Assembly (NCBI RefSeq): GCF_038397735.1
Contig: NZ_CP151635.1
Coordinates: 2,604,001 to 2,668,000 of the forward strand
Origin: Microbacterium sp. LWH13-1.2
Lineage (GTDB): Bacteria > Actinomycetota > Actinomycetes > Actinomycetales > Microbacteriaceae
Direction of reading: 5' to 3'
Length of the DNA stretch: 64,000 nt
The notes under the pieces were generated by a model, which worked only from the letters and a program-made list of their open reading frames with translations, searched no databases and had not been told where the DNA came from. Position 1 is the first letter of the stretch. Every line of letters starts with the position of its first letter. A program made the position numbers and the translations under genes. This document shows, one piece after another, positions 4,921 to 14,444 of the stretch.

Positions 4921-4947
4921 TGGCGGTGACGGTGGGATTTGAACCCA
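4921..4947 (-). other. tRNA-Ser 3'-end remnant; integration attachment site (att)
   Basis: Read on the minus strand, these 27 bases are the 3' end of an actinobacterial serine tRNA. They hold the T-loop TTCAAAT with its CCCAC half-stem, acceptor strand CGTCACC, discriminator G and encoded CCA. The sequence diverges immediately upstream (ATA instead of the expected stem), so there is no 5' half. A tyrosine integrase gene begins about 115 bases away. This is the classic footprint of an element inserted in a tRNA 3' end, with this copy being the host-distal att. No second copy or intact tRNA-Ser is present in the window. Confidence 0.8.
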
Positions 4948-5063: not shown

Positions 5064-6203
5064 TTACCGCTGGAGCGCGGCAGCACGCTGACGGTGTAGT
5101 GCCGAAGCCACATCATCCAGATCGTCGTCGAGCAGGTCGGCGTATGTGTCGAGGGTCATAGCCGCACTCGCATGCCCGAGCATCCTCTGTATGGCCTTCA
5201 CGTTCGCGCCAGCACTGATCGCCAATGACGCTGCCGTGTGTCGCAGATCATGGGGCGTGACTCGAGGCATGACGGCACGAACGTTCTCGCCGCGCGCCCG
5301 CGCCTCAGCGGCATCCGCCGCATCTTCGCGGCGAGCCCGCTTGCAGGCACCTGCGAACCATCCGGACTGCGCATTGCCCTGCCGAAGATAGCCGCCGGTC
5401 GCGGCGGGGAAGACCAAGTCATCCGGTCGCTTATGCGAGGTCGCTCGCGCCATCGCGTCATCTAGGAAGGCCGGATACACGACGGTTCGCCTCTCGTGGG
5501 TCTTCGGCGTACCGACGACGACGTGTCCATTGACAGTCACCGCATTGGAAGTGATATTCAGTCTGCGACGCGACAGATCGATGTCCGCGACCTTGAGCCC
5601 GGTGGCTTCTCCCCAACGGAGCCCCGTATAGGCCAAGAAGCGCACCAGGTCCGGGTAGAGCGAAGCGTCCGCAAGCCGCTCAACTTGCTGATGGGTGAGA
5701 TAAGCCCTCGCCTTCGGGACCTTTCGAGGCGTCTTCACGTCCCGTGCCGGGTTCGATTGGAGTCGCCGGTCCCGCACTGCACCGTCGAGAATCGCGGCGA
5801 GCACGCCGTGACATCGCTTGACGGTTGTCGCCGACCGTTTCCGGCTCATCTCCGCCACCCACGCGGAGACCTCCGTGTGGCGGATTGTGCCGACTTGGCG
5901 ACCTCCCCAGACCGGCTCGACGTGGACTCTCCACGCGCTCTCATCGCTGTGCAACGTCGACGGCTTGACCGCCGCTCCGTGCGCCACGAGCCACGCTGCA
6001 CCAAGCGTGCCGACCGTGACGCGTGATTCTCCCGGCGCGATGTATGCCCCCTGAAGCTTCGCCGATTCCACCGTGGTAAGGTATGCCTCCGCGTCGCGCT
6101 TCCTCATGAAGCCGCCCTTCCGAGCAGTCTTCCCGTCCGGCTTGCGGTACCGCGCCTCCCACCGCCTGCCTTCTTTGGTCTCGTACGAGTAGGCGCTGCC
6201 CAT
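5064..6203 (-). CDS. int: Tyrosine-type site-specific integrase
   Basis: This 379-residue phage/ICE-type tyrosine recombinase would integrate and excise the element at tRNA-Ser. An N-terminal arm-binding region (SYETKEGRRWEARYRKPDG) is followed by the SAM-like core-binding domain and the catalytic domain. The catalytic residues are visible: Arg in TGLRWGEATGL, His/Arg in PHDLRHTAASL, a second His in MLGHASAAMT and the nucleophile Tyr in LDTYADL near the C-terminus. I chose the start at 6203 because GGAGG lies five bases before it; the frame extends to 6284. The stop lies next to the att remnant, the usual place for such integrases. Confidence 0.94.
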   Translation of the reverse strand: MGSAYSYETKEGRRWEARYRKPDGKTARKGGFMRKRDAEAYLTTVESAKLQGAYIAPGESRVTVGTLGAAWLVAHGAAVKPSTLHSDESAWRVHVEPVWGGRQVGTIRHTEVSAWVAEMSRKRSATTVKRCHGVLAAILDGAVRDRRLQSNPARDVKTPRKVPKARAYLTHQQVERLADASLYPDLVRFLAYTGLRWGEATGLKVADIDLSRRRLNITSNAVTVNGHVVVGTPKTHERRTVVYPAFLDDAMARATSHKRPDDLVFPAATGGYLRQGNAQSGWFAGACKRARREDAADAAEARARGENVRAVMPRVTPHDLRHTAASLAISAGANVKAIQRMLGHASAAMTLDTYADLLDDDLDDVASALHRQRAAALQR

Positions 6204-6548
6204 CGGTCCTCCGCCAGTCTTGCTCTCAGTGTGGGATGCGAGCTTATGGCACACCACTGACATCTGTAGCGACACTGCACCCACGACGCCGACTGCAGCT
6301 TTCTGCTCGCAAACGAATGAAAACGTGTGCTACGGTGTCGACCTACACGATTCTGCAGCCCGAAAGTAAAAGGCTAGTTTCCGAATCCCTTTCAGGTTGA
6401 GCCCCACTCGGGCGGCAGCCCTCCTGGAAGCTTCGGGGATGCAATAGAGACGGTGCATCCGCACCAACCGCTTCACCACCATTGGCCGGTTCACGACGAC
6501 CAGATGGAGCGGATCTCTTGGAGAGAAAACCACCTCCAAGGGATCCGT

Positions 6549-6785
6549 ATGCCTACTCCGACCTCGCTCCCCGCTCCGTCAGTCCTCTCGACGCTCATCA
6601 CGCCGGCGGCGCTCGCAGAGGCACTCGGCACCACTGAGCGCACTCTGAGCGAATGGCGTATTCGCGGCACGGGTCCCGCGTTCATCCGTGCGGGCGGCAG
6701 GGCCGTCCGCTACAGACCCGAAAGCGTGGACGAATGGCTGATCGCGCAAGAGCGCCGCAGCACTGCTGAAGAGCTCAGCGCCTGA
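6549..6785 (+). CDS. Excisionase-like MerR/HTH_17 DNA-binding protein
   Basis: This 78-residue protein has a winged-helix of the excisionase/HTH_17 type: LITPAALAEALGTTERTLSEW is the helix-turn-helix and RYRPESVDEWL the wing and following helix. It is divergent from the integrase gene and is the likely recombination directionality factor. The ATG at 6549 has AAGGGA seven bases upstream, so I prefer it to the longer frame from 6453. The roughly 345 bases between the integrase start and this gene hold both promoters and no other gene that I can see. Confidence 0.8.
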   Translation: MPTPTSLPAPSVLSTLITPAALAEALGTTERTLSEWRIRGTGPAFIRAGGRAVRYRPESVDEWLIAQERRSTAEELSA

Positions 6786-6916
6786 CCGTGGATCCCAGCG
6801 CCCCTTGGACTCACGTCGACCCGCCCGTCAGATCTGCTGCACCCCGCGCCCCGCCGCGCGCGACTGAGGTTCAAACGCCCAGTCGCCAGTTGCCAAGATG
6901 CACCAAAGGATGCCGC

Positions 6917-7237
6917 ATGAGAATGACCACTTCACAGCTTCGAGCGAAGCAGATCGCCGACCTGCAAGCCCAGCAGGCCGCGTACGAGAGGAAGGTTGAA
7001 GAAGCCTTGAAATCCGCGGGCTATGCGCGTTGCGCAGTCGTTGAGGACTTATACGAGCTGATGGGGATTGAAGCTTCCCAGCGCAAGCGAAAGAACCGCA
7101 ACGGAGAGATCATCCAGGTCCTTTCCGACAGGGATGAATCGGATCGCACGGCGCGTCTTATCGAAGCGGTGTCCTCCTTGCTCAACTCGAGCGAGCCCCT
7201 CAGCGCTCCGCTTTTCCCGCCTGCCACCTCGGCCTGA
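6917..7237 (+). CDS. Small helical protein of the mobile element, function unknown
   Basis: This is a 106-residue, mostly helical, charged protein. The N-terminal third (MRMTTSQLRAKQIADLQAQQ onward) is a probable coiled coil, followed by DLYELMGIE and a basic patch QRKRKNRNGE. A ribosome site AAAGGA lies eight bases before the ATG at 6917; the frame is open back to 6788 but that part is proline-rich and unlikely to be coding. I do not recognise the family. Its position between excisionase and cargo suggests an element-maintenance role, which is inference only. Confidence 0.6.
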   Translation: MRMTTSQLRAKQIADLQAQQAAYERKVEEALKSAGYARCAVVEDLYELMGIEASQRKRKNRNGEIIQVLSDRDESDRTARLIEAVSSLLNSSEPLSAPLFPPATSA

Positions 7238-7242
7238 ACACC

Positions 7243-7281
7243 GGTTGGCGGTGCGGAGGCCTCGACTTCGCACCGCCAACC
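7243..7281. terminator. Bidirectional hairpin between convergent genes
   Basis: A perfect 13-bp stem (GGTTGGCGGTGCG with CGCACCGCCAACC) with a 13-base loop sits between two convergent genes and can stop transcription from both sides. Confidence 0.7.
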
Positions 7282-7308
7282 TATCCCGCACTCTTGGGGT
7301 GTCGTCGT

Positions 7309-8472
7309 CTAGCCAGCTACCGAGCGGCAAGACAGGTCGAGACTCGAACAGCAGCATTCGCCAATTGAAGACCCTGCAGGTACAACGTGTGGATGCCACA
7401 CTCCTTGGCTAAGTGCTTGAGTTAGCTCGCTAAGCGTGAGGTAAGGCGCCCCGGTTCCTCGATAGCGGTCGCGAATGGACAACTCGTTCTCGACCACCCA
7501 CTCGTGCAGGCGGCCAAGCTTGGACACATCCCTTGGACGCAAGCCGATCACGCAGTCGCTAAGCACTACGCGTCCGACGTCGATCTGGAGCGGCGCCTGC
7601 CACCGGCCCACCCGCGAAAGACATACGAGGGGCGCGTCGTCACCTAGGTGCGCTGGAGCAGAGTCGCAACGCTCCTTCTCAAATTGACGCATGGATGTCG
7701 TGTGCAGCAGCGGCAGTAGGTCCGAGGCGCTCGCAACCCGGCTGCGATTTTGGTGGACGGGAACTCGACCGCGCACCACTTCAACGCAGCTACACCCGTC
7801 GATAGCTTCCGTGGTCGCTCGTACCTCGTGCGCGATGCGCGGCGGCGGCGCGACGGCGTCTTCAGCTGCTCGTCGCGTCAACTGAATGATCGTTGTCGCG
7901 ACACGAGCGCCAGGAAACGAAGATGTGCCTGGCGATCCCAACCGATCTACGGAGAAGTCCTGTCGGATAGCATCCCAAAGCTCACGGTTACGCTCCGCCT
8001 CAACCGCACCGTTCGGCAGTATCGCGACGAATCCCGCTGCGGGATTGAAGGACTTGAGCGCCGTTATCAGAAACTCGACCGCAGGTGCGACCGCCCCCTC
8101 AAATGATCGGTATGAAGCAGACGTACCACCGTTGCCACGGTATGAGAATGGAGGATTCAACAGCACCGCAGCGAGGCCAGCCCGCGCCGCCCGCGCGGCC
8201 GCGGATGCGGTTCGGGAACGACTGTCGAGGAAGTCGGCGTTGCTCACGACCCATGCCGGGTTCTCTCTGCGCAGCCGACGAGTTGTTTGCGAGTCGACAT
8301 CGATCGCGGCGAGCCTGACGGAACTGCCGAATCGTTTCTCAGCAGCTTGTAGAAGCGCTCCCTCTCCCGCCGCCGGATCCAGCACCAGGCCATTCAGGTC
8401 CAGGGGCAGTGACGAGACCATCTGCTCGGCTAACCACGTGGGGGTGTAGTAGGCGTCCCGTTTTCTAGGCAT
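7309..8472 (-). CDS. N6-adenine DNA methyltransferase of the four-gene cargo operon
   Basis: This 387-residue SAM-dependent DNA methylase is the last gene of the operon. Motif I is VLDPAAGEGALL (residues about 30-41) and the amino-methylase catalytic motif IV is NPPF (about 106-109), so the product should be N6-methyladenine. The C-terminal half (LSRVGRWQAPLQIDVGR and after) looks like a target-recognition region. The ATG at 8472 overlaps the stop of the upstream gene by eight bases; the longer frame to 8541 is rejected. No restriction endonuclease domain is visible in this or adjacent genes, so methylation may mark self DNA for another effector in the operon, or the enzyme may be a solitary methylase. 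Confidence 0.85.
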   Translation of the reverse strand: MPRKRDAYYTPTWLAEQMVSSLPLDLNGLVLDPAAGEGALLQAAEKRFGSSVRLAAIDVDSQTTRRLRRENPAWVVSNADFLDSRSRTASAAARAARAGLAAVLLNPPFSYRGNGGTSASYRSFEGAVAPAVEFLITALKSFNPAAGFVAILPNGAVEAERNRELWDAIRQDFSVDRLGSPGTSSFPGARVATTIIQLTRRAAEDAVAPPPRIAHEVRATTEAIDGCSCVEVVRGRVPVHQNRSRVASASDLLPLLHTTSMRQFEKERCDSAPAHLGDDAPLVCLSRVGRWQAPLQIDVGRVVLSDCVIGLRPRDVSKLGRLHEWVVENELSIRDRYRGTGAPYLTLSELTQALSQGVWHPHVVPAGSSIGECCCSSLDLSCRSVAG

Positions 8473-9418
8473 CCGCACGCCATCGCCGGTGGTGTGCCAT
8501 GAACCCTGAGACGTCATACACATACATTGATCGCGAGCCAACAGTCCGGTTCGCGGTACGCACCGGATGATCGTAGATCAATTCAACAGCGTCCATGTGG
8601 TCGATCGCATACAAGACCGCCCCCAGCGCGTGCGGTTTCGTACCGATAGGAGCCACCCGCAGATAACGACTACCTGCGGAGTGGTGGATTCGCTCAAGCG
8701 CTTGATAAGCCTCGAAGGGACAATGTGCGGCAGCGAACTCCACTCTGTCCTCCATCCTGTCCCGATCTAGCGTTTCCTTGTTCGCGATGTAGGACTGCAT
8801 CGAGTACTCGAGTCGGAACGCAGGGATGCCAACCACGGGGGACGTCACTCGAGAATCCACCTCCTCCTGATCGAAGATGTGCTGCAGGCGAGCGCCTTCA
8901 AACCCGAGGAGCGGCGCGAACGTCCCCCGGTCGTCTGCTCTGCGACCGATTCGCGCAAACCCTGGCAAGGGTTCGATTCCGCGATTCGAGCTCAGGTCGT
9001 AGAGCGAACCCGGCTCTTGATCGTGCTTTCGATAGTCCTGCGGCTCCGCATACAGCGCGACCAGTGCACGTCCGGCGCGCAGCAACGTCCTCACGAGTGG
9101 CGCCCACACACGATGCTCCAAACTCGTCAAATCGATAGCGACCACCCCGGTCATACGAGCGACGAGCGATTCAAGATCGGCAGTCTCGTGCAGATTGAAC
9201 GAATCAGTCCACGGAACGACATGCAGTATCGCTTCATCGACCAGCGTCACACAGTGGAGATCGACGCCAATCGTCGACAACTGCGATGCTGCCGTCCGAG
9301 CTCGATCCTCATCGATCGTCTCCCCGTAGATCAGATGTCTGATGGCGAACCGCCCCAGCTCGTGACTCGCAACCTTGAACGTGTACGACACCTCGTCGAG
9401 ATGGAGCATGTCATACAC
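8465..9418 (-). CDS. Unrecognised 317-residue protein in conflict-type operon
   Basis: I do not recognise this family. The gene starts at a GTG (9418) overlapping the ATPase stop by eight bases and ends overlapping the methylase start by eight bases, so it is tightly coupled to both. Alternating hydrophobic strands and helices suggest an alpha/beta (Rossmann-like) fold: VVAIDLTSL, ALVALYAEP, and the C-terminal stretch RVAPIGTKPHALGAVLYAI followed by AVELIYDHP. The GTKPHALG loop is glycine-rich and could bind a nucleotide or be part of a sensor. No membrane segment or signal peptide is evident. It may be the effector or sensor of the system; this is inference from position. Confidence 0.75.
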   Translation of the reverse strand: MYDMLHLDEVSYTFKVASHELGRFAIRHLIYGETIDEDRARTAASQLSTIGVDLHCVTLVDEAILHVVPWTDSFNLHETADLESLVARMTGVVAIDLTSLEHRVWAPLVRTLLRAGRALVALYAEPQDYRKHDQEPGSLYDLSSNRGIEPLPGFARIGRRADDRGTFAPLLGFEGARLQHIFDQEEVDSRVTSPVVGIPAFRLEYSMQSYIANKETLDRDRMEDRVEFAAAHCPFEAYQALERIHHSAGSRYLRVAPIGTKPHALGAVLYAIDHMDAVELIYDHPVRTANRTVGSRSMYVYDVSGFMAHHRRWRADA

Positions 9419-11282
9419 CTAGCCCGGCGAAGAGATCCAATTGGTCCGGGGGAGCGCCTCCGTCATCATTGCTCGAGGACAAGATGCGCTTGAACGCCGC
9501 GGTCGCGGTCTCACGCTGCGTCAACGCGATTAGGTCATCCGCAGGAATTGTGAGTCGACGCTTACTTCGATGGCTATAGACGAACGCGGGAGCCAGCACA
9601 GGGTGGAGTTGATAGTCAAGCTCCGGCGGCCGCCCTCGTTCCGCAGCCTCTTTATTGCCGACGAAATCTACGAGAACACCCTGACCAACCGCCTCAGCCA
9701 GTAGCGCGTCAACACTTGCCTCGGGGACGGTCGCGCCAGAATAGCGAACTCGGAACTGCACGACTTCCGGCGTAGTCAAGGCACTTGAACGAGCGAGCGA
9801 CCCAAACAGTCCTCCGAGCCCGACCGTGAGTCGAGTCAGTGCAACCCCTCTCGTCGACCAGCCCTGAAGATCGCGAACGGTGATCTCCCCGACACGCTTT
9901 GCCGCGAGCGTCTGACTCAAGGGTGACACGGGCTCTTCGAGCCCTGCACCTTCCTCAACGTGGCGGCGCAACGCCTCTTGGACAAGCCTAAGAAGATAAC
10001 GAATGTTCCCATCTGCGAGTTGGCGGTAGGTGCGCCATCCCGTGTAGTACTTACGTTCCCCAACACTGCGCTGTCGAACGGTGAACAACACCGCGTGATT
10101 GTAGTTGCCGACACGCGTCTTCCACTTAGACGGCCATCGGAGAGCGAACCGTACGACGTCAATCACCTGTTCGCTGTGAAGCTCCGCCCATCGAACGATC
10201 AACGCAGCCTCAACGAGGTTCCGATCGGCCGCGAAGGCCACTTCTTCTTCCGACCCACCGTCAGACCGGACCTCGTGAAGCAGAGTCTCCTTGAGTGCCT
10301 CTGCGCCCAGAAGCTCCGCTTCCGCATCCAGCGTTAGCCCCGGCAGCAGCTGGTCGAGCGGCAAATGCGCCAGCCCCTCGGAACTGAGGCGGCGGGTGAT
10401 TACGGATTCGGCAAACTTCTTGAATCCAGCGTCCTTCAGCCGAGTCACGATGTCGATTGTGGCGAAGTCAGCGGTGTCCTGAAGCGGCTGGCCCTCGATC
10501 ATGGTCGCTCGCTCGATCGCGACCTTATTACGGACCCCAATCTTGAAAGTGAAGGGCGCTCCTCCAACCTGCTTCACGAGCGTATTGAGAAGCCGCTGTT
10601 GGTCTGCCGAGAGGTTTTCGTACTCATCCACGCAGAAGACGAACGGCTTGGAGAGAGAAACCTGGAGGCCGCCGAGTGCCGCAAAGAGGTACTCGATCGG
10701 CTTGCCGAGGATGGACGTTGGCAACGTGGCGAGTTCAGACACACGCCCGTTGACCTTCGATTCAATCTCGACAATGGCCATGTCGATGTTGGCCTGTAGC
10801 GACTGAAGGCTAGCGGCGTTCTTCAGTCCGCAAGACCCCGAGAACATCGACATGTGATGAGTGTCGATGTCGACAGCCTGCCCATTGGATGCCAGCCACA
10901 CGGCGTACTCAACGACGAGCGAGCTCAAACGAAGATTCAAGTAGTGAGCAAAGACGCGTTCCCATGTCGTCGAGTCGATCCCCTTGCCACGAAAAACCGA
11001 CACGACCGTAGGCTCAGCCTTCCAGTAGCCACCAATTGATTCCCAATCGCGCGGGTCAACGCTTCCCGAGAGTTGATGTTGCCCGCGGAAGCCGAGAGCG
11101 CGCAAGGTCGTCGTCTTCCCCGTGCCTCGACCTCCGACGAGGAATGTAGGCGTGATGCCGGCGAGCTGATGCACGTAGACAGGCAGAGCAAGTCGACCAT
11201 ACAGTTCGTCGTCGTCTGAGTATTCCGCGCGTACAGAGCCCAACGCCCGGTTCAACTTCTCCAGAACGTTGCTATCAGTCAT
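9411..11282 (-). CDS. ORC/CDC6-type AAA+ ATPase of conflict-type operon
   Basis: This 623-residue P-loop ATPase has Walker A GGRGTGKTTT (residues about 50-59) and Walker B FVFCVDEYEN (about 214-223), in the arrangement of ORC/CDC6-like AAA+ or STAND-like regulators. After the ATPase core come a long helical middle region and a C-terminal segment with a likely winged helix (PEASVDALLAEAVGQGVLV) before a hydrophilic tail ending DQLDLFAGLGV. The start overlaps the stop of the PRTase-like gene by eight bases. Such ATPases act as NTP-dependent switches in several bacterial conflict systems; a role as DNA-loading or damage-sensing switch is inference. It is not a replication initiator of the element as far as I can tell. 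Confidence 0.85.
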   Translation of the reverse strand: MTDSNVLEKLNRALGSVRAEYSDDDELYGRLALPVYVHQLAGITPTFLVGGRGTGKTTTLRALGFRGQHQLSGSVDPRDWESIGGYWKAEPTVVSVFRGKGIDSTTWERVFAHYLNLRLSSLVVEYAVWLASNGQAVDIDTHHMSMFSGSCGLKNAASLQSLQANIDMAIVEIESKVNGRVSELATLPTSILGKPIEYLFAALGGLQVSLSKPFVFCVDEYENLSADQQRLLNTLVKQVGGAPFTFKIGVRNKVAIERATMIEGQPLQDTADFATIDIVTRLKDAGFKKFAESVITRRLSSEGLAHLPLDQLLPGLTLDAEAELLGAEALKETLLHEVRSDGGSEEEVAFAADRNLVEAALIVRWAELHSEQVIDVVRFALRWPSKWKTRVGNYNHAVLFTVRQRSVGERKYYTGWRTYRQLADGNIRYLLRLVQEALRRHVEEGAGLEEPVSPLSQTLAAKRVGEITVRDLQGWSTRGVALTRLTVGLGGLFGSLARSSALTTPEVVQFRVRYSGATVPEASVDALLAEAVGQGVLVDFVGNKEAAERGRPPELDYQLHPVLAPAFVYSHRSKRRLTIPADDLIALTQRETATAAFKRILSSSNDDGGAPPDQLDLFAGLGV

Positions 11283-12159
11283 CGCTGATCAAAGGCTTCC
11301 ATGTTGGCGAGGGGCGGGCTGGTTGAAGGATGGGCAGAGTGTTATTCGGGGCCTTGTCCTGAAAACTCACGGCAAGACCTTGCGCTTTGTAACCCAACGG
11401 GCCATCTGCGTCGAGGCCGGTCGAGGGAGCGTGGCGCGTCGCGACCTCAATGAGATGCTCACGAAGGCTGTCTGGGACAAGTCTCGTATCAGGAGAGTTT
11501 GCGGAGTAATCCTCGCCAAGGAGGTACGCGGGATGCACGACCGCTTCTGTTCGAGCCTCTATCTGAGCCTTGGCGAGTTCGGTCGCGACGATCGGAACAA
11601 AGTACACAGCCCCAAGGCGCTGCTCAGCGGCAAGCTTCCTCAGAGAGGATCTCCCAGCCTGAGTCGAGTAGACGCGCTCCCAGTTCGCAATAAACTGTCC
11701 CCCGGTTCCGCTGATGTCGTCCAGGAAAACGATCGGTCGAAGCGTCTTGGCGCTCAGCAACTCGTGGATCAAGCGCTCGCTGTCGATGCACCTGGCGAAG
11801 CCCAACGCGCGAGCTGTTCGCAGGTATTGATATCCCGAGGCCGCGCCATCGCCCGCGAATGAAAGCGGGATCGAGGCGATCGCCTCCCCAAGGAATCTCT
11901 CCCACGCCTCGACCCGAGCGGACGCATCCCCGAACTCGGGTCGCGTCGATAGCGATCGGATGGTTGAACTGAGTGCGGCGATCCGGTGATCATCGTTGAT
12001 GAAGACGAAGGAGTCAAGAAGCGCGTGCGCAACCTCACGGTCAATCCCGTGCTCAAAGTTCTCGACCCAAGCCTCGACATGGAGGTTTCGAGCCTTGGGC
12101 CAGACGCGGATACGCGAGAGGTAACGCCGAGCTTCGACGATGTCCCTCTCGTGGGTCAT
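11275..12159 (-). CDS. Phosphoribosyltransferase-like protein (PRTase-CE type) of conflict operon
   Basis: This is a 294-residue protein and the first gene of the operon. The central IVFLDDISGTGGQF (residues about 143-156) matches the PRTase PRPP-binding loop (two acidic residues then a Thr/Gly-rich turn). The C-terminal PNNTLPIL followed by a Trp-Lys-Pro-Leu element resembles uncharacterised PRTase-like proteins that, from memory, are found beside ORC/CDC6-family ATPases in conflict-system operons. The helical N-terminal 100 residues have no recognised motif. It overlaps the ATPase gene by eight bases. The biochemical activity is unproven: it could transfer phosphoribosyl groups or use the fold for nucleotide sensing. 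Confidence 0.75.
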   Translation of the reverse strand: MTHERDIVEARRYLSRIRVWPKARNLHVEAWVENFEHGIDREVAHALLDSFVFINDDHRIAALSSTIRSLSTRPEFGDASARVEAWERFLGEAIASIPLSFAGDGAASGYQYLRTARALGFARCIDSERLIHELLSAKTLRPIVFLDDISGTGGQFIANWERVYSTQAGRSSLRKLAAEQRLGAVYFVPIVATELAKAQIEARTEAVVHPAYLLGEDYSANSPDTRLVPDSLREHLIEVATRHAPSTGLDADGPLGYKAQGLAVSFQDKAPNNTLPILQPARPSPTWKPLISDD

Positions 12160-12980: not shown

Positions 12981-14444
12981 ATGGCTGTCGTGATGGCGAG
13001 CTCCACACGCTCCGCCGACGACCTCATTCGTTACGTCCTCGAGCCCAAGAGCGATCAGCGCGGCGAGCGCTACGTGATGGCATCCGGGACGGGTGGGCTG
13101 CTCGTGTCGCTGGCCCGGGACCAGATGCGAGATGTCCGCGAGAGGTGGGGTAAGAACGAGCCCGGGGCGTACGTGCAGGCCTATCACGTCATCCAGAGTT
13201 TCTCAGCAAGAGATGAGCTCGACCCGGCCGATCCGAGCGATTGGATGACCGCACAGGACCTCGGGATTGCACTCGCCGAAGAGGTGTTCGCAGGACGGCA
13301 AGTGCTCGTCGTTACACAGCGGGATGGCGCCGGCGGTTGCCTCCACAACCACTTGGTCGCCTCGAGCGTGAACACTGAGACGGGCGACAGCTTGAATAGT
13401 TCGGTGGTCATGCATGCGCGTCTGGTCGAGACGCACGAGGCGGTTCTGGAGCGCGAGGGATTCCATCAGCCCGACGATTTGAGACAGGCATACACCGACG
13501 CGCTGGATCGCCGCGATCGTGGCGAGTCCAGCAGGCTCCGCCGCGCGCCAACGAAGGAGCAGCGCGCACTGATCGAGGCAACGCGCCACGCACAGTGGCA
13601 AGCCTTGCGCGCGACTGCCGAGTCGGGCACAGCACGTCGGCTCGAGCCATTCAGCTTGCTCGTTCTGAAGCACCGCATCGACAGTGCAGTGACGGCCCGA
13701 AGCACGACAGACTGAGTCACGTTTGTCACAAACGCGCGGACCGAAGGGGTGAGCGTGGAACGCGCGGAGGGAGATGATCTCGTGTCGTTTGGCATGATGC
13801 GTCGAATGCACGACGGATCCTTCCGCGCGCCTACGGCCAGCGATCGCCGCCGCGGTTCCACGATTGGCGAGGGTTACACCGTAACTGCCCTCGAACAACG
13901 GATCACCAGCCAGCTCGACGCGATCGCGAGGTCTGCGCGCACGATGACATTCGTCTTGACCGCGGAGGACGAAAGAGAAGTCGAGGCCCGCATGGCCATC
14001 TACTGGGCCGAGTTCGAGAATGAGCGCGCAAAACCGTTCCGCGCGCGGGGGTCGCTTGAACAGCAGCCTCCGCGAGACATCCCGTCAGCGGCGACAGGCG
14101 ATGCGGATCCGAGCGACTCTGCGACTGGCGCACCGACGAGCGACCTGCAGAGAGAACGCGACTTGGACGACCTCCGCGTAGAGCTTGAAGGCAGCTCTCC
14201 CGGAAGTCTCCCAGCGCCGGTCTCTGCCGGCGCCAACGATAGCCTCAATCTGTCTGATCCCAGCACCGAGATCTGCGCTGACTACGAAGCTCCGCGGTCA
14301 ACTCCGACGTCACCCGCACCCGAGAACCGCGATGCTAACTCGATCGCGGAGGCGAGACGACGTCGACCAAGACGACAGGCGATGTTCGACTTCGATTTGC
14401 AGGACGACACCTCGCCGCGTGTTGAGGGCGAGCTGGAACTATAG
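12981..14444 (+). pseudogene. MobP-type relaxase interrupted by an in-frame TGA
   Basis: The first 244 codons encode a relaxase/mobilization nuclease domain with the family's metal-binding histidines (HNHLV, residues about 122-126, and an upstream histidine in QAYHVIQSF). The frame then hits TGA at 13713-13715, but the same frame continues open to 14444 and still reads like a relaxase C-terminus (SVERAEGDDLVSFGMMRR, then SDRRRGSTIGEGYTVTALE). Reading the TGA as Trp gives TTDWVTFVTNA, a plausible family sequence. The whole frame would be 487 residues, the normal size for this class. A single G-to-A change (TGG to TGA) therefore explains the break without any frameshift. The truncated N-terminal nuclease might still fold; otherwise the element is immobile unless helped in trans. 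Confidence 0.8.

Follow-up and report, generated by a model that had tools for sequence, protein, structure and literature searches.

The main known role of CARF and SAVED proteins is to receive cyclic oligonucleotides made by Cas10 or CD-NTases. In kinase-AAA-CARF proteins, an AAA+ domain with a P-loop arginine lies upstream of CARF, as described in passages of Makarova et al. 2014 (PMC4012209). Excerpts of later reports name PRTase/WH proteins (PRTase, phosphoribosyltransferase) as the effectors of type III-A1 retrons (PMC12548924), and describe bacteriophage exclusion (BREX) as combining a methylase with an ORC/Cdc6-clade ATPase without an obvious nuclease (PMC12839542). Here we analyze a module with features of each of these systems. 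It is encoded in a 64,000-nucleotide stretch (hereafter the window) of the Microbacterium sp. LWH13-1.2 genome (contig NZ_CP151635.1, positions 2,604,001 to 2,668,000), which is a single contig of 3.77 Mb. Its four genes are predicted to code for a PRTase, an ORC/Cdc6-type ATPase, a CARF-type sensor and a DNA methylase.

The four genes are one system, a conclusion that is well supported by their order, adjacency and co-divergence. We consider the chances about evenly balanced that this system is a nuclease-less, modification-linked, sensor-gated abortive defence module with a nucleotide-directed effector. A sequence-only reading of the window had described a single system of four minus-strand genes, joined by eight-base overlaps and carried on a mobile element, and had set co-occurrence beyond close relatives as a test of that view. 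The overlaps are exact at all three junctions (Table 1), a pattern that would fit translational coupling. For gene 4, the list of open reading frames gives an upstream TTG at position 8541, and the ATG at 8472 matches the conserved N terminus.

Table 1. Features of the four-gene module and its surroundings, with positions in the window
Feature	Position	Strand	Basis
Gene 1, PRTase-CE, predicted nucleotide-directed effector, 294 aa	11275..12159	-	Pfam, PADLOC, AlphaFold model
Gene 2, ORC-CDC6-like ATPase, predicted switch, 623 aa	9411..11282	-	PF24389, Walker motifs
Gene 3, CARF6-type tandem CARF/SAVED-fold protein, predicted ligand sensor, 317 aa	8465..9418	-	PADLOC CARF6, structure model
Gene 4, adenine-N6-type DNA methyltransferase, 387 aa	7309..8472	-	Motifs and family profile
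Overlap of genes 1 and 2, 8 bases, ATGACTGA	11275..11282	-	
Overlap of genes 2 and 3, 8 bases, GTGTATGA	9411..9418	-	
Overlap of genes 3 and 4, 8 bases, ATGCCTAG	8465..8472	-	
Tyrosine integrase of mobile element	5064..6284	-	PF00589, E 1.6e-20
HTH_17 protein, on integrase side of operon	6453-6785		Pfam
MobA/VirD2-type relaxase, opposite flank of operon	12981..13715	+	PF03432, E 4.6e-16
tRNA-Ser(CGA) 3'-end copy, 27 bp, probable attachment site	4921..4947	.	27/27 bases identical to intact gene

Co-occurrence extends far beyond close relatives. A scan of one genome per species with a gene 3 profile yielded 66 loci, which by their record titles represent 11 phyla and which reduce to 64 distinct loci when the near-copy pairs L048/L050 and L064/L065 are merged. 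The single Bacillota metagenome-assembled genome among them nests within Bacteroidota on the ATPase tree. The ATPase gene adjoins the CARF6 sensor gene in all 66 loci, and the PRTase gene is present in 64, the contigs of the other two (L049 and L061) beginning inside the ATPase gene. A methylase of the same family is found in 65 loci, and in 62 of these it lies within 300 bp: downstream on the same strand (53 loci), upstream (4), on both sides (2) or downstream on the other strand (3). In the remaining three (L055, L056 and L063) the methylase is two genes further off. Of the two genes that separate it from CARF6 at these loci, one codes for a second ATPase that has a zinc ribbon and resembles ORC-CDC6-like weakly, and the other for a protein of 282-286 aa without a Pfam match.

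The gene order is kept across phyla, which indicates that the arrangement did not arise by chance. In addition, evolutionary distances of the four proteins are correlated (r 0.84-0.93), with a Mantel p of 0.001 for each of the six pairs (59 rows). Thus, the single-system proposal is upheld, whereas the combination that had seemed unfamiliar is not rare, being spread over 11 phyla and built from parts for which Pfam or PADLOC models already exist.

Gene 1 matches the PRTase-CE family (PF24390) with 114.3 bits against a cut-off of 27, and its nearest PADLOC family is PRTase_III-A (E 4e-18). It carries the motif DDISGTGGQ, which resembles the loop that binds phosphoribosyl pyrophosphate (PRPP) and whose residues D147, D148 and Q155 are present in 63 of 63 aligned sequences. 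The AlphaFold model (pLDDT 95.5) matches type-I PRTases, with both the fold and the DD of the PRPP loop present. When the model is ranked by VIA, eight of the first 11 rows are labelled uracil PRTase, and the other three (Fur1p, TT0130 and AQ2163) presumably are uracil PRTases as well. This amounts to a tie, since less than 1 Z separates them from HGXPRT and OPRT, and Foldseek puts an OPRT in first place. We take gene 1 to code for a putative PRPP-using, pyrimidine-PRTase-like enzyme.

Gene 2 matches the ORC-CDC6-like family (PF24389) with 330.3 bits, again against a cut-off of 27. Its Walker A (GGRGTGKT) and Walker B (DE) motifs both occur in 65 of 65 aligned sequences, as does the P-loop arginine R52. 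These features point to an ORC/Cdc6-type ATPase, which we predict to be the switch of the system. Sequence searches returned no relative of solved structure for genes 1 to 3.

The 317-residue product of gene 3 had been passed over as unrecognised, but it can be assigned to the CARF family. Residues 29-307 match the PADLOC profile CARF6 (PDLC01913) with an E value of 1e-82, and the predicted structure has a CARF Rossmann-type fold of the tandem CARF/SAVED kind. Csm6 and Cam1 rank first for this model in VIA-align only. The protein carries no fused effector or output domain of its own. Judging from the profile match and the model, gene 3 probably codes for a CARF-type ligand sensor and is unlikely to be the actor.

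Gene 4 carries motif I followed by NPPF, with NPP present in 65 of 65 aligned sequences and the F in 60. The family profile matches EcoR124II HsdM (1.5e-21), BseCI (1.4e-16) and TaqI (1e-13), and the C-terminal part is conserved and resembles a target-recognition region. The protein is an N6-adenine-type DNA methylase by motif and similarity, and it could mark self DNA. No nuclease families were found in the four operon proteins. Taken together, these results agree with the sequence-only reading regarding the motifs of genes 1, 2 and 4, all of which are present and conserved. Its PRTase and ORC-type assignments are borne out by Pfam, and for the PRTase also by a confident model, and its view of the methylase as able in principle to mark self is in keeping with the motifs and the similarity to N6A methylases.

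Relatives of the ATPase provide a view of how the module is assembled. A search for this family in 394, 395, 398 and 392 genomes yielded 28 genomes with matches at E <=1e-15. Wider stretches were taken for 20 of these. The remainder comprised the window and loci already known, a duplicate, and contigs that were short. Among the 20, L158 is identical to L038. CARF6 is present in all 20 of these ATPase-first loci, as recognised by a home-made profile (14 loci), by PADLOC (L145, L146, L147 and L148) or within the ATPase protein itself (L151 and L152). The output gene, however, is exchanged. It is a PRTase in seven loci (L139, L140, L141, L149 and L158, and weakly, with 27-30 bits, L146 and L147), a calcineurin-like or wHTH-Calcineurin_assc protein in four (L142, L143, L145 and L148), and HD-CE in three (L144, L155 and L156). 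Five loci (L150 to L154) have a long ATPase, and in all three of those that were scanned (L150, L151 and L152) a kinase domain is fused to it. In L157 the ATPase is broken.

In L151 and L152, the kinase, ORC-CDC6-like ATPase and CARF regions occupy one chain, and the 1239-aa protein of L152 (6494-10213) matches PADLOC CARF6--CARF_STK_AAA over its whole length with 1471 bits. These fusions indicate that the ATPase and CARF form one unit, to which the output is joined as a part of its own. The swapping of output genes places the PRTase in the effector position, and both the swaps and the retron effectors support the view that it may act in that role. Accordingly, of the two actors that had been proposed earlier, the PRTase stands, and the 317-residue protein is better seen as a sensor.

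DNA methylases are recognised near 12 of the 20 loci and belong to four classes: N6_N4 (L140, which is marginal, L141, L149, L150, L151 and L153), D12 (L142 and L148), C5 (L144 and L155) and the class of the window (L139 and L158). At L155 (3973-5769), a C5 methylase is fused to an HhH-GPD base-excision glycosylase, beside ThyX and CARF6. At L146 (9032-10975) and L147 (10083-11993), a protein of 636-647 aa, with a HAD hydrolase domain in L146, precedes the divergent PRTase. The arrangement is reminiscent of the Ter system, for which a pairing of PRTase and HAD proteins has been proposed.

The source of the ligand for gene 3 bears on an alternative in which the PRTase makes a nucleotide signal, CARF6 senses it, and the ATPase complex or a host pathway kills the cell. 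The four-gene operon contains no cyclase, and the window genome has no match to Cas10 (PF22335) or SMODS (PF18144), which together with the CARF-type ligand fold would leave room for a signal maker within the module. When the same two models were applied to 31 genomes (that of the window and 30 that contributed to the 66 loci), the Cas10 model exceeded its cut-off in three, at 27-33 bits, and the SMODS model did so in six. The Cas10 model also passes its cut-off in E. coli, one of the controls. Thus, the canonical ligand makers are not general among carriers. PRTases accompanied by HAD phosphoesterases have been proposed as signal makers of the Ter system in passages of two reports (PMC7824862, PMC5512222), and a gene with a HAD domain lies near the weak PRTase at L146 (by Pfam) and perhaps at L147 (by a similar start only). 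However, HD-CE, calcineurin-like proteins and kinases replace the PRTase while CARF stays, and hydrolases would be poor stand-ins for a required signal maker. We therefore judge a signal-making PRTase to be unlikely.

In the defence mechanism that we favour, gene 4 would methylate adenines of the carrier's own DNA, and the ATPase together with the CARF-type nucleotide sensor would form a switch that judges the state of DNA or of nucleotides. The trigger might be a replicating invader whose DNA lacks the mark, or a change in nucleotides that such an invader brings about. Sensing of this trigger would release the PRTase of gene 1, which would alter the nucleotide pool and arrest the cell. In relatives, the same switch would act through another output, which may be a phosphoesterase, a protein kinase or an enzyme of the HD type. 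Some loci carry neighbouring genes for dUTPase, ThyX or a glycosylase, and their products might keep carrier DNA free of uracil and limit false alarms or collateral damage. The self-marking, the trigger, the role and chemistry of the effector and the phage-stopping outcome are all inferred.

Several observations weigh against this proposal. The PRTase is the sole predicted agent of cell killing, because no nuclease, membrane or NADase domain is evident in the four genes. The best Foldseek matches of the gene 3 model are CobK reductases (E 4.6e-5 to 2.6e-4), and CARF proteins (Cam1) appear from 4.5e-3. Gene 4 scores 19.7 bits against PF02384 (N6_Mtase), narrowly under the cut-off of 20.4; its homologue on a Klebsiella plasmid reaches 59.6 bits. 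The methylase is not strictly obligatory, since none is recognisable at L011 and it lies on the opposite strand in 3 of 66 loci. Neither the window nor 51 of the 64 distinct loci have uracil-related neighbours. Finally, the link to phages is weak, with one viral contig matched by one profile and none by another.

The uracil-related neighbours were identified among 74 genes of 100-450 aa located within 500 bp of the core at the 64 distinct loci. Pfam was used to scan 63 of these genes (11 were dropped as spurious-looking) and two from named records. Among the matches listed for these 65 proteins (25 of 38 families), dUTPase_2 appears in six, trimeric dUTPase in four and Thy1 in one. A protein of the uracil-DNA glycosylase (UDG) superfamily, or like a uracil glycosylase, is the neighbour at L016. 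Home-made profiles add dUTPases at L005 and L030, both outside the 74 genes, and a weak dCTP-deaminase/dUTPase-like pair at L022. In all, 13 of the 64 loci have a gene for a dUTPase or a dCTP-deaminase-like, MazG/PRA-PH-like (L014), ThyX or UDG-like protein beside the core, as do two of four named records (L099 and L101). L027 has both a dUTPase and ThyX, and ThyX is also found near two ATPase-first variants, L155 and L157. The dUTPases represent two unrelated folds, and when the six clear trimeric dUTPases and the three ThyX proteins are compared with the motif consensus, their catalytic motifs seem to be intact.

When the uracil-neighbour label is mapped on a 76-row ATPase tree, it needs 11 changes, at least nine of which are forced by starred branches. 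The label is weakly clustered, with 26 of 500 shuffles as low, on what is a quick-search tree with long branches. Under strict adjacency, 8 of 74 near genes and 0 of 450 farther genes carry the label (Fisher p 1.1e-7), the zero coming from home-made profiles that were trained on adjacent copies. In a Pfam control with 100 of the 450 far genes, the families listed (25 of 90) include neither dUTPase nor Thy1 nor UDG, although weaker single matches are possible.

These neighbours raise the prospect that the module responds to uracil in DNA or to an increase in the dUTP:dTTP ratio, as might occur with some phages or on phage takeover of thymidylate synthesis, and that the carrier is kept from reaching the trigger level by its dUTPase, ThyX and glycosylase neighbours. 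The recurrence of such genes at 13 of 64 loci, with two dUTPase folds, at least nine changes on the tree and ThyX at two variants, is consistent with this notion. So is the proximity of the PRTase model to uracil PRTases, where these are tied with others. Furthermore, according to an excerpt of one report (PMC7824862), whether phage DNA contains uracil depends in part on the absence of dUTPase and Thy1. However, about four in five loci, including the window, lack such a neighbour, phages and mobile elements often carry genes for dUTPases and ThyX, and the far-gene control shows 25 of 90 families. We thus regard uracil surveillance as a doubtful explanation for the module as a whole, and retain the modification-linked defence described above.

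The genomic setting of the module agrees with the mobile element proposed earlier, as indicated by the integrase, the HTH_17 protein, the relaxase, the partial tRNA copy and a lower G+C content (0.59-0.62 in blocks across 6001-12000, versus 0.69 where the window begins on the left). The tRNA-Ser(CGA) copy adjoins the integrase gene, and the intact tRNA gene lies 88 kb off in the same orientation. Thus, the element may reach up to 88 kb, far beyond the window. Gene 3 has a match in only one of 58 genomes in a search of relatives, and that one is the genome of the window, which suggests that the module was horizontally acquired.

Gene 3 matches were also found in 148 plasmid records, 129 of which are conjugative Klebsiella plasmids. 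In one of these plasmids (L100, OW966975.1, 4846-9897) the order is methylase-PRTase-ATPase-CARF6, and in this record as well as in L099 and L101 (plasmid/contig records), PRTase-CE and ORC-CDC6-like genes (Pfam) lie beside CARF6 (PADLOC). One Klebsiella plasmid copy sits upstream of a drug-resistance cassette, and a Moraxella plasmid copy is surrounded by NACHT and TIR genes. The company of this Moraxella copy, the mobile setting and the sporadic occurrence all favour a role in defence. In E. coli, the module occurs on plasmids in 4 of 5426 genomes, all of them laboratory recipient strains C600 and J53. Two of 50,697 phage records matched, both from one assembly, and the contig looks chromosomal given its cstA and efp genes. 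L101 (CAKLQF020000018.1), although named a phage, resembles a bacterial chromosome, with cstA, efp, kamA and tRNA-Val.

Such a distribution might also be expected if the module had no antiviral role and served the mobile element for addiction, or were an ordinary methylase operon of the orphan or maintenance kind. The mobile setting, the 148 plasmid records and the presence of toxin-antitoxin-type AbiEii in 2 of the 65 scanned neighbours, among the matches listed, fit this explanation. However, a fixed four-part core with a sensor, an ATPase and swapped outputs exceeds what addiction would need, and a CARF protein implies gating by a ligand. We find this explanation quite improbable, and defence remains our preferred interpretation.

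A broader proposal is that there is an unrecognised defence superfamily, of which the module is the most frequent form. In it, an ORC/Cdc6-ATPase and CARF6 switch, with exchangeable DNA methylases and exchangeable outputs directed at nucleotides or proteins, would read the thymine/uracil state of DNA or of the dNTP pool. We put this forward tentatively and think that it probably does not hold. If true, thymidylate metabolism would be what this innate immunity is tuned to, and dUTPase, ThyX or a uracil glycosylase would serve as its inbuilt safeguards. Even a functional uracil link by itself would mean that immunity reads a metabolism that phages routinely rewire. In any case, a CARF family is wired here to an ATPase, a methylase and a PRTase in a genome without either Cas10 or CD-NTase matches, which makes its ligand a testable question. 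Likewise, the outputs swapped on one switch constitute a natural experiment on which part kills.

The literature searched contains no experiment on the module and no description of the four-gene set. Models are already known for three of the four components, and a description of the kinase-fused relative was published in 2014. The form with a PRTase and a methylase may be listed in earlier surveys. Neither the exchange of methylase class and output on one ATPase-CARF6 switch nor the recurrent uracil-related neighbours were described in the literature searched.

Comparison with established systems argues against several assignments. The four proteins include no reverse transcriptase, which a type III-A retron would have beside its PRTase, even though we read the PADLOC label PRTase_III-A as referring to these retrons. 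The methylase reaches 15.8 bits against the MAD2 methylase model of MADS, for which the NCBIfam cut-off is 720, and the operon has no cognate endonuclease as in classical or Type II restriction-modification. Cyclic-oligonucleotide-based antiphage signalling (CBASS) is set aside because the window genome has no SMODS match and the operon no cyclase, and a type III CRISPR accessory because there is no Cas10 match. The CARF/SAVED proteins of these two systems have their fold in common with gene 3, which differs in that it carries no fused effector. The likeness to BREX, judging from the passages cited above, lies in a methylase and an ORC/Cdc6-type ATPase without a nuclease. However, the four proteins have no PglZ or BrxC match, the ATPase has 623 aa rather than 1200-1300, and the CARF sensor and PRTase are additional.

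The families PF24390, PF24389, PF24391 and PF24408 (PRTase-CE / ORC-CDC6-like / HD-CE) include those of genes 1 and 2, and their names and adjacent accessions suggest that they derive from one published survey. Pfam provides neither a model for gene 3 nor a description of the system. Among the closest known relatives is kinase-AAA-CARF (PADLOC CARF6--CARF_STK_AAA), whose ATPase and CARF6 families, as seen in L151 and L152, are the same as those of the window. PRTases go unmentioned in the passages of Makarova et al. 2014 (PMC4012209). In contrast to this single-chain relative, the module of the window distributes its parts over separate genes, has a PRTase as its output and is linked to an adenine methylase.

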